DNA of 64,000 nt from Bdellovibrio bacteriovorus HD100 (GTDB lineage: Bacteria > Bdellovibrionota > Bdellovibrionia > Bdellovibrionales > Bdellovibrionaceae): NCBI RefSeq assembly GCF_000196175.1, contig NC_005363.1, positions 2,170,001 through 2,234,000 on the forward strand, in the 5' to 3' direction. Under the pieces are notes generated by a model. It saw only the letters and a program-made list of their open reading frames with translations. It was not told the origin of the DNA and ran no database searches. This document shows positions 27,274-29,664 of this stretch, in pieces. A program made the translations under genes and the position numbers. Position 1 is the first letter of the stretch, and every line of letters starts with the position of its first letter.

Positions 27274-28044
27274 CTATTTAAACGCTGCGGATTTCGCCAA
27301 GCCAGAGAATGTTCCAAGCTTTTTGAATCCGTCTGCCGGGTACAGGCTGGTCTTGTCAATCACCGCGGAAGCGCGGCAGTTGTATGGACCAGAGCGGATG
27401 TACCAGCACTTTCTGTAAGGAGACTGTTGTACGTAGGACTGTGCGAAGTTCTTGTAGTAGACAGAACCTGTTACATATCCGCCGCCTTGACCGTCACCTT
27501 GATTCACAACGTTATCCACGATCAGGACAATGGCACCTTGAGCATCCTGGAAGTAAGCGCTGAACACTGTCTTGCTGCCGTATTTGAACCAGTAGTTATA
27601 GTTATACTCCAGCATGTTGTTGTCCTGCAGACCGCTCAGTTTCTGATTGGTGCCAGAACCGGACTCAAACACACCTTGATACTGATAACCTGTATCCACA
27701 TAAGAGATCTTCACAGAACCGGCATAACGGCCGCTCTCAAGCTTTTGCAGATCCACGGTCAACTTATAGTTGGATGGATTGTTCAGCGGGTGAGATGCCA
27801 CATAGTTACTGAACTCAGTAAATGATGTCGGTACGAAATCAACCGTGTTGCTGCCAGAAGTGGATCCGGAAGAAGATGAACCAGAACCATCTGGGGAAGT
27901 TGGTACGCTGCCATCAACTCCACCATCAACAACTGGAGTGTTGGTGTTGGATCCAGTCTGGAACTGATTGCTCTTACCACAACCAACGCCCATCAAAGAG
28001 AACGCCGCCAGCAGGAAGATCAGTTTAGAGTTGAATGTTTTCAT
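27274..28044 (-). CDS. predicted lipoprotein with Ser/Gly linker
   Basis: The ATG at 28044 has GAGG 7 nt upstream and opens a signal peptide with lipobox MGVGC; a longer reading frame upstream lacks these. The 256-residue product has a low-complexity Gly/Ser/Thr linker (about 25-75), then a domain rich in Tyr and Gly with NYNYWFKYGSKTVFSAYFQDAQGA-type beta strands and two cysteines near CWYIRSGPYNC. No family recognised. A sigma-54-like element lies 56-71 nt upstream. Confidence 0.7.
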   Translation of the reverse strand: MKTFNSKLIFLLAAFSLMGVGCGKSNQFQTGSNTNTPVVDGGVDGSVPTSPDGSGSSSSGSTSGSNTVDFVPTSFTEFSNYVASHPLNNPSNYKLTVDLQKLESGRYAGSVKISYVDTGYQYQGVFESGSGTNQKLSGLQDNNMLEYNYNYWFKYGSKTVFSAYFQDAQGAIVLIVDNVVNQGDGQGGGYVTGSVYYKNFAQSYVQQSPYRKCWYIRSGPYNCRASAVIDKTSLYPADGFKKLGTFSGLAKSAAFK

Positions 28045-28099
28045 ATCAGCCTCACTTAAAAGGTCCGGTTGATTGATGGACCTCTCACCAAGACTCTGT

Positions 28100-28115
28100 T
28101 GCGATGCTTGTGCCA
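28100..28115 (-). promoter_or_regulatory. sigma-54-type promoter candidate
   Basis: The minus strand reads TGGCAC-AAGCA-TCGCA, one mismatch from TGGCAC-N5-TTGCA, with the essential GG and GC exactly 10 nt apart. It would drive the lipoprotein gene starting at 28044. Confidence 0.4.
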
Positions 28116-28278
28116 ACCCTGCCAAAAGGGCCTAACTCCATGATCTAACTGGGATTTTACAGCTAATCTCAGGGTGGTACAAACACCAGTAATCGTCTAA
28201 TCCTTGAGGAAGGTGCGCAAAAGGGGCACCACTGTCACATCCTGAGCCGCCTAAAACTTCGACGAAAAAAGAAATATT

Positions 28279-28305
28279 TAAGATTTTCCCTCATCTTACC
28301 GAAAT
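28279..28305 (+). promoter_or_regulatory. sigma-28-like promoter candidate for the 25-residue peptide gene
   Basis: TAAGATTT (28279-28286), 11 nt, then ACCGAAAT (28298-28305). Spacing is ideal and the CCGA core is kept, but the -10 deviates in its last bases. A start near 28312 would leave a 25-nt leader with AAGGAA. Confidence 0.45.
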
Positions 28306-28336
28306 GGGATGTATCAATTTAAACAAGGAATTATAG

Positions 28337-28414
28337 ATGACTGTTACAGCAACAAACGCATTGATCCTGGGCGCAGTATTCATGTTTGCTGCCCGCGTTT
28401 TCTTGGCATTCTAA
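28337..28414 (+). CDS. 25-residue single-span membrane peptide
   Basis: A short reading frame of 25 codons with a good Shine-Dalgarno (AAGGAA, about 7 nt before ATG) and a TAA stop. The peptide begins MTVTATNALILGAVFMFAAR and ends VFLAF: one hydrophobic helix of about 18 residues with a single arginine near the C-terminus. A terminator follows 43 nt on and a sigma-28-like promoter precedes it, so it has every element of an independent gene. It falls below usual annotation length limits. Function unknown; compare small membrane-complex regulators or holin-like peptides. Confidence 0.6.
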   Translation: MTVTATNALILGAVFMFAARVFLAF

Positions 28415-28457
28415 GAATAGAACTTCCAAAAAAACTTTATCCGCGAACTCTTGAAAT

Positions 28458-28478
28458 GGGCTTACAGGCCCTTTTTTT
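28458..28478 (+). terminator. terminator after the 25-residue peptide gene
   Basis: Stem GGGC-TTACAG-GCCC followed by seven T residues (28472-28478). The stem is short, but the T-run is strong. It overlaps the stop codon of the convergent SpoIID-domain gene. Confidence 0.65.
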
Positions 28479-29664
28479 ATTTCTGAACAGTCTCTTGCGC
28501 GACCAGCGTCGCACCACTCAAACCCGCCAATGGATAATAGTGTTTTAAAATCTGACGGAAGGAATATCCCTTCTGCCCCAGAGCGCGACTGCCCCACTGA
28601 CAAAGACCCACGCCATGACCAAAACCCCGGCCCTCGAACAGGAACCGATCCCCGGTTTTCTTCATATCGAACAAAGCACTGCGCAGATCCTGAAAACCCA
28701 GCGCCTGACGGAATTCATTGGCTGAAATCACCTTGTCCGGCAGGCCATTGAATGCCACACGCACAGACTTGATCCTTTGATCCGCCGGGTTTCGTTCAAG
28801 CTTCAGTTCACTGAAGTCCTCAACCTTCAAACGCTTTTGCAAATCCATTTTCGTCAGTGCCAACTTCCAGTGCCCCCGCGGGTTCGTGGGACAAGAGCTG
28901 TCCACCACCACACCGGTGTTCACACCATAGTTCCAGACATTCTTGGACGTCGTGGTTTTGCCACCGCAGTCGGAATGATAGAAGGCCTTCAGCACGCGGT
29001 CCTTATTCCCCAAAAGCTTGATTCCTTTGGTCGACTCCACGGCCTGCAGCGCTTTTTGAATCAAAGGGCTTTGGCGGTCTTCCGCCACCACATGACGAAA
29101 CACCTGATCCAGCACACTGCTTTCAAGATGATAGGCTTTGTCTTTGCGTTCATTGATCACCGCCAGGGCATAGGATCTTGCCGCCACAGCCTGAGCCTTC
29201 AAGGTTTCCAGAGGCCAGGACAAGGGCATTTCGCTGGCCAGAACCCCGGTGATGTATTCATCCAGTGGCATCACGCCGATGACATCAATATGTCTTTCAG
29301 AGTTCAAACTCAGCAAAACCCGGCCCGGCAGAGCCTGCGATCCGGCTCGCAGATTGTGCCCCTGGATCATCAGGTACTTGTCGGTAAAAAGGTGTTCAGG
29401 GTCTTTGTTGTTGATACGAAGGGCCCAGATTTTTTTGGAGCCTTTGGAAAGAACTCGAACTTCGGCAGAAGATGAATTGGGAATCGCCACCGGACGGAAA
29501 TTCTGGGTCAGGTTCTGAAACTGCAAACCCGTCCCGCTAAAGGCAATTTTACCCGCCAATGAGCTTAAGCGCACACGCACAATTTCTTTATCTTCCGCGC
29601 GGGCCTCTGATGTGAAACTGACCAAACCAATGCTGAAGATCAACGCTGCAAAAACGAGCTTCAC
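28477..29664 (-). CDS. SpoIID/LytB-domain exported protein
   Basis: A 395-residue protein from a GTG start with GGAG 9 nt upstream and a signal peptide ending ARA. The SpoIID domain is plain: VIGVMPLDEYITGVLASEMP with its key glutamate, SWPLETLKAQAVAARSYAL, the HSDCGGKTTTS block and the end motif GRGFGHGVGLCQWG. SpoIID is a lytic transglycosylase cleaving peptidoglycan stripped of stem peptides; LytB homologues enhance amidases. In a non-sporulating predator, a role in remodelling its own or prey wall is plausible (inference). Confidence 0.9.
   Translation of the reverse strand: MKLVFAALIFSIGLVSFTSEARAEDKEIVRVRLSSLAGKIAFSGTGLQFQNLTQNFRPVAIPNSSSAEVRVLSKGSKKIWALRINNKDPEHLFTDKYLMIQGHNLRAGSQALPGRVLLSLNSERHIDVIGVMPLDEYITGVLASEMPLSWPLETLKAQAVAARSYALAVINERKDKAYHLESSVLDQVFRHVVAEDRQSPLIQKALQAVESTKGIKLLGNKDRVLKAFYHSDCGGKTTTSKNVWNYGVNTGVVVDSSCPTNPRGHWKLALTKMDLQKRLKVEDFSELKLERNPADQRIKSVRVAFNGLPDKVISANEFRQALGFQDLRSALFDMKKTGDRFLFEGRGFGHGVGLCQWGSRALGQKGYSFRQILKHYYPLAGLSGATLVAQETVQK

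Follow-up and report, generated by a model that had tools for sequence, protein, structure and literature searches.

Small membrane proteins and attack-phase transcripts

Small single-pass membrane proteins with regulatory function are found in bacteria at lengths of about 25–50 residues, and examples include CydX, AcrZ, KdpF, and MgtS. TisB, Ibs, and ShoB are small hydrophobic type I toxins. In Bdellovibrio, the Flp (type IVb) pilins are short and hydrophobic proteins, and flp1 is described as being controlled by FliA in the attack phase (PMC5430801). The attack-phase sRNAs of Bdellovibrio bacteriovorus stem from short intergenic units, some of which carry FliA promoters; herein, FliA is presented as the main attack-phase sigma factor, and the consensus TTAAG-N16-CCGATA is given for 92 of 140 attack-phase promoters (PMC3627812). 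A Bdellovibrio promoter was activated by FliA in E. coli (PMC5430801), and among five promoters with FliA motifs, three are reported with robust and two with moderate attack-phase reporter activity (PMC12622784).

The locus described here lies in a stretch of 64,000 nucleotides of B. bacteriovorus HD100 (contig NC_005363.1, positions 2,170,001–2,234,000 of the forward strand), which is called the window and to which all coordinates refer unless a genome is named. It encodes a peptide of 25 residues. Like CydX, AcrZ, KdpF, and MgtS, the peptide has one predicted transmembrane helix and no catalytic residues and likely binds a larger membrane protein. Unlike them, it has no sequence relation to this kind of protein in Pfam, NCBIfam, or PDB sequences, its transcription unit in the window is not continued by a larger membrane protein, and its promoter is of the sigma-28 type. 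With the Flp pilins it shares small size, hydrophobicity, and a FliA-type promoter; identity with them was rejected, as the prepilin peptidase site followed by E-Y, the motif as given in PMC5430801, occurs in none of the 54 members accepted below. Unlike the attack-phase sRNAs, which it resembles as a short intergenic unit, the locus encodes a conserved peptide, and it is not one of the eight sRNAs in Table 2 of PMC3627812, a list from which short mRNAs may have been removed or missed. As a whole, the locus is best explained, with good confidence, as a gene for an attack-phase inner-membrane microprotein that would serve as an accessory or regulatory subunit.

Architecture of the locus

The ORF (28337..28414, plus strand) consists of 25 codons and a TAA stop and encodes the peptide MTVTATNALILGAVFMFAARVFLAF. 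It is preceded by the ribosome-binding site AAGGAA (28325..28330, plus strand), which ends 6 nt 5′ of the ATG; in genus relatives, AGG-containing purine-rich stretches are located shortly 5′ of the start. Further upstream is the FliA (sigma-28)-type promoter TTAAG-N16-CCGAAA (28278..28304, plus strand), which is assigned by consensus match and conservation and in which the −35 element TTAAG (28278–28282) and the −10 element CCGAAA (28299–28304) are separated by 16 nt. A candidate intrinsic terminator (28458..28478, plus strand) consists of a 5-bp stem with a 4-nt loop (28458–28471), followed by a T-run. The mRNA would span from about 28310 to this terminator near 28475, approximately 165 nt. 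The ORF is oriented tail-to-tail with a gene for a SpoIID/LytB-domain protein of 395 residues with a probable signal peptide (28477..29664, minus strand; PF08486 with E 7.6e-23, TIGR02669 above cut-off) and head-to-head with a gene for a probable lipoprotein of 256 residues without a Pfam family (27274..28044, minus strand). The original prediction had named the promoter, the AAGGAA site, the 25-codon ORF, and the terminator; all four are found in place, and its claim that a small gene, complete in itself, encodes a hydrophobic single-pass peptide is borne out by the comparison within the genus and the order.

Conservation of the coding frame

The peptide is present in all 24 genomes of the genus Bdellovibrio at 64–100% identity, with ATG, 25 codons, and stop intact throughout. 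The synonymous-site bias for which the original prediction had called is found: the variable sites number 13, 4, and 24 of 25 at the first, second, and third codon positions, the third being the most variable, and pN/pS is 0.127. Across the 23 relatives, 75 amino-acid differences from the window peptide are counted, as opposed to 211 (sd 7) when the base changes are placed randomly. Frame-breaking changes were sought in the same close relatives, and none of the 23 ORFs is broken, as opposed to 16.6 expected under random placement. Four of the other five frames have stops; the fifth, a reverse frame that shares third positions, is stop-free with a pN/pS of 0.27. Judged by these substitution patterns, the small ORF is under purifying selection, and together with the 30 diverged members elsewhere in the order, they make it nearly certain that the ORF is a real coding gene. 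The gene is kept even where its surroundings are altered: SpoIID lies 0.8–2.0 kb off in 13 of the 24 genus genomes, and in one genome both neighbors are absent nearby. That the peptide stays while its neighbors change argues for a gene of its own.

Promoter and predicted link to the attack phase

Of the 11 positions in the published attack-phase consensus, the window promoter agrees at 10, and it is the sole match of this quality at N16 on either strand of the window, in which 12 others reach 9/11. In the genome, TTAAG-N13..18-CCGATA occurs at 14 sites, eight of them with N16 spacing, and a reversed control pattern occurs at 8 sites over all spacings; the looser pattern TTAAG-N16-CCGA has 40 occurrences vs 27 for its reversed control. 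Because of this latter ratio, a single genome is not proof of a promoter, and the proof lies in conservation. All but one of the 24 genus genomes carry a FliA-type site of at least 9/10 no further than 90 nt from the start (23, vs 0.26 expected from shuffles), and the best site of the remaining genome scores 8. The sigma-28-like promoter of the original prediction is thereby supported. Outside the genus, such a site (≥9/10) is found in 9 of 18 members (0.08 expected) and in 4 of 12 members added later, that is, in 13 of 30; none is found in genus g19 (G058, G059, G060, and G062) or in 13 other outside members. The promoter score of G100 is uninformative, as it was taken from an ATG at which the gene probably does not begin. 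The spacing is N16 in 23 of the 24 genus members and N15 in most others. FliA itself (TIGR02479) scores above cut-off in 64 of 66 genomes of the family.

The microprotein gene is thus very probably driven by FliA. Attack-phase expression is a strong prediction, because a conserved FliA-type promoter coincides with the published FliA data.

The −10 box ends 31–60 nt 5′ of the ATG in the genus and only 8–9 nt 5′ of it in G027, G101, G028, G035, and G039 (L073, L134, L071, L069, and L072, respectively); hence, the messages of these five genomes would have almost no leader or none at all. The region upstream of the promoter (28207–28277 in the window) holds two further blocks: most genus genomes contain a second conserved block, GCGCAAAA.GGGCACC..CTGTC, on the side of the lipoprotein gene, and a palindrome-like block, TTCGACGAA, is located immediately 5′ of the −35 box. 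Both blocks are possibly sites for a regulator or for the promoter of the lipoprotein gene.

Features of the peptide and relatives in databases

The peptide consists of a short polar N terminus, a hydrophobic core of approximately 13 residues, an Arg or Lys, and about five mostly hydrophobic residues up to the C terminus. The length of the members ranges from 22 to 30 residues and equals 25 in 32 of 54. From the Arg/Lys to the C terminus there are five residues in 40 members, six in 7, seven in 5, and four in 2. A Phe precedes the Arg/Lys by three residues in all 54 members; it was no criterion of the strict-motif screen described below but was favored by the later profile. The window peptide forms one predicted hydrophobic helix, and its Arg20 is followed by five further residues; no charged side chain precedes Arg20 in 22 of the 24 genus members (exceptions, G011 and G022). 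The Kyte–Doolittle mean of the best 17 residues amounts to 1.9–2.7 among the 33 distinct peptides encoded by the 42 earlier of the 54 genomes; on this scale, the predicted helix is long enough to span a membrane. According to the positive-inside rule, positive residues are placed at the cytoplasmic side. A bitopic helix with the N terminus outside, the C terminus inside, and the Arg/Lys at the cytoplasmic side is, therefore, the most likely topology, in which the Arg/Lys three residues after the invariant Phe would be intramembrane or interfacial.

No family of Pfam, Rfam, or (for the window peptide) NCBIfam is matched at threshold. The best weak matches have an E of 0.094 in Pfam and 0.015 in PHROGs, each for 1 of 22 members, and phrog_23739, of unknown function, is matched by 4 of 22 members with an E of 0.026. 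An Rfam match to the rimP leader was dismissed (E 0.77; 20.9 bits vs a gathering score of 47). A profile search yielded no sequence relative in the PDB, the one match (E 1.8) being taken as chance. No description of the peptide, and no paper joining SpoIID with B. bacteriovorus, was found in the open-access papers that were searched. The peptide seems to represent a new family among the small single-pass membrane proteins, a kind already known, and is unusually conserved for so short a sequence.

In several genus genomes, the peptide weakly resembles (E 0.06–3) a transmembrane segment from an antiporter, Kef-like and approximately 750 residues long; this is probably chance. In the genome of the window, this segment, LNAVVVVAVFLTMARVFLPF, lies at G000:C1:2166076-2166135 (L157), approximately 32 kb from the locus.

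Distribution across the order

Members were accepted in 54 genomes of five families (f1, 37; f3, 1; f5, 2; f7, 2; f9, 12). A family-wide profile search yielded G034 and G036 outside the genus, an order-wide one G136 from another family, and a search of the phylum (368 genomes) no match outside the order at E ≤ 0.01. Since the members of G034, G036, and G136 sit between the same two neighbors as the window gene, the flanks of SpoIID were searched in other genomes. Among 73 genomes, 53 have a SpoIID match, and diverged members with either Arg or Lys were found beside it. The strict motif occurs at 10 of 46 loci beside SpoIID, vs 0.01 expected from shuffles; when this criterion was fixed, 8 of these loci were already known, and G067 and G098 were added by it. 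This count is a lower bound, as the strict motif missed members with Lys, which were later picked by eye after a hydrophobicity filter; three further loci ran off their contigs.

A profile that includes the diverged members and is blind to neighbors was run on 138 genomes of the order. It gave matches with E ≤ 0.05 in 59 genomes, of which 54 were accepted, and none at this threshold in 79. Herein, 17 genomes go beyond the 42 accepted earlier, and 12 of them were accepted. Of the 14 inspected, 11 adjoin SpoIID, G108 adjoins the lipoprotein gene only (on a contig of 4.2 kb), and G031 and G070 adjoin neither. Left out of the 59 were G031 and G070, being away from the usual neighbors, and the weak matches of G044, G050, and G080 with uninspected flanks, as were secondary matches within accepted genomes, one of which (G000 at 1158706) was inspected; further weak matches are uncounted. 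As adjacency was used in accepting or refusing weak matches, adjacency counts are partly circular. In G031 (L173), an ORF of 57 residues without the usual neighbors starts like a family member (MTLEYILLLVCVFMFALKVFIS) and continues with a polar tail; it is possibly a C-terminally extended relative and is uncounted.

Proposed role

The locus is best read as a free-standing gene with its own FliA (sigma-28) promoter. Its predicted product, a 25-residue microprotein that Bdellovibrio shares with its order, would cross the inner membrane once. Given this promoter, the product, if translated as predicted, would appear chiefly in the free-swimming attack phase. Because the F-x-x-R/K spacing is strict and no residue is obviously enzymatic, the peptide may bind a single partner in the membrane. 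Most likely, the F-x-x-[R/K] face would contact a larger envelope complex of the attack phase at its transmembrane part, and the peptide would belong to this complex as an accessory or regulatory subunit. That it acts in this way, as a small subunit or a regulator of a membrane complex, we put at about even chances. The usual neighbors, SpoIID and the lipoprotein, look exported and offer no obvious partner helix; slipin and NfeD do but are not always near. A more far-reaching version is doubtful: in it, the peptide would be a core attack-phase microprotein of the whole order, a FliA-made helix that uses its F-x-x-R/K face to control a complex of the envelope or of motility needed for hunting or entry, and its transcription, which in many genomes runs tail-to-tail with spoIID, would set the expression of the cell-wall enzyme against the attack phase.

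The hunting program could lack, in its present description, a gene of 25 residues that is spread across an order with an attack-phase type of promoter. In Bdellovibrio, both genetic screens and proteomes depend for the most part on annotated genes. One transposon screen is described as having taken intergenic insertions as neutral controls (PMC6561027), and small proteins are described as under-represented in a 2025 proteome (PMC12546842). At 25 residues, the gene is simple to delete and to tag.

Neighboring genes

In 52 of 54 members, SpoIID/LytB lies convergently downstream and no more than 2.1 kb away, at a distance of up to 250 nt in 39, 0.8–1.0 kb in 6, and 1.9–2.0 kb in 7; all 13 members at the larger distances belong to the genus. 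In the 40 members that were not found via SpoIID (14 others were), it is downstream in 38, or in 38 of 42 when G031 and G070 are counted. An accepted member is present in 18 of 53 SpoIID-positive and in 0 of 20 SpoIID-negative genomes, a contrast weakened by ascertainment and shared ancestry. The lipoprotein homologue is located divergently upstream in 42 of 54 members; among the rest, G028, G087, G099, and G101 have short flanks. In G021 it is 4.4 kb off, and in G022 both neighbors are absent within about 9 kb.

In 13 of the 24 genus genomes, other coding sequence of at least three kinds lies between the microprotein gene and SpoIID (L148–L154 as well as G007, G010, G013, G015, G016, and G020, i.e., L034, L046, L049, L048, L045, and L051). 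Six genomes have an ORF of approximately 600–620 residues on the SpoIID strand, G003 one of 601 residues on the opposite strand, five an ORF of 268–285 residues on the microprotein strand, and G007 smaller ORFs. The 268–285-residue ORF could be cotranscribed with the microprotein gene in those five genomes.

These neighbors might themselves be the partners, with the peptide assisting the SpoIID/LytB enzyme or the slipin–NfeD membrane pair located beyond it in envelope remodeling around prey entry. The association with SpoIID, both in the members found independently of it and in the contrast between SpoIID-positive and SpoIID-negative genomes, speaks for this reading, which is nevertheless rather unlikely: SpoIID is on the opposite strand with a separate promoter, the two genes need not be direct neighbors (they are so in 39 of 54), and SpoIID has, by eye, a signal peptide that looks cleavable and no obvious membrane partner helix. 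As for the second pair, no slipin match is found near the locus in G036 and G037, where a p165 homologue follows SpoIID instead.

Candidate terminator and predicted transcript

A structure of hairpin plus T-run is found once in the window locus vs 0.5 expected from shuffles of the stretch and is weak evidence alone. Within 110 nt after the stop, such structures of differing sequence are found in 13 of 24 genus genomes, vs 0.6 expected from mononucleotide shuffles; in the other 11, no terminator was found after the ORF. Within the genus, neither the interval from promoter to ORF nor the region downstream of the ORF is constant in length or sequence. Transcript structure as a conserved feature is unsupported, the fold of the window transcript having a z of −0.46 relative to shuffles.

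The 3′ ends of the microprotein and SpoIID ORFs overlap antisense by 4–69 nt in 16 members, all of which are outside the genus. The product that matters could be the RNA, an attack-phase transcript antisense to the 3′ end of spoIID that lowers SpoIID, with the ORF being secondary. The convergent arrangement in 52 of 54 members, the closeness in 39, and the lack of a found terminator in 11 genus genomes fit this reading. It is nonetheless clearly improbable, as selection acts on codons (pN/pS and the random-placement test), the transcript folds no better than shuffles, terminator-like structures are found at the window locus and at 12 other genus loci, and the peptide is kept where SpoIID is 0.8–2.0 kb off and, in one genome, where both neighbors are absent. 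The antisense overlap outside the genus and the separation within it pull in opposite directions for an RNA regulator.

Unlikely alternatives: toxin and chance ORF

Of the three remaining contrasts with a membrane microprotein, namely an RNA regulator, a toxin, and a chance ORF, each is less likely than the microprotein itself. By its size and hydrophobicity, the peptide fits the class of TisB, Ibs, and ShoB and might be the membrane-acting toxin of a type I toxin–antitoxin pair. This is very improbable: a simple consensus scan, which leaves room for other promoter types, detects no sigma-70-like promoter on either strand of 28045–28560, inheritance through an order in a mostly conserved neighborhood is unlike such modules, and a specific partner is indicated by the invariable F-x-x-R/K motif. 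A chance ORF within a conserved intergenic regulatory region is favored by the promoter DNA, of which the conservation equals that of the ORF (mean majority fraction, 0.87 for the promoter vs 0.84 for the ORF). Its probability is close to negligible, as the codon-position pattern, the similarity at the protein level in other families, and the unbroken frames in all 23 relatives stand against it.
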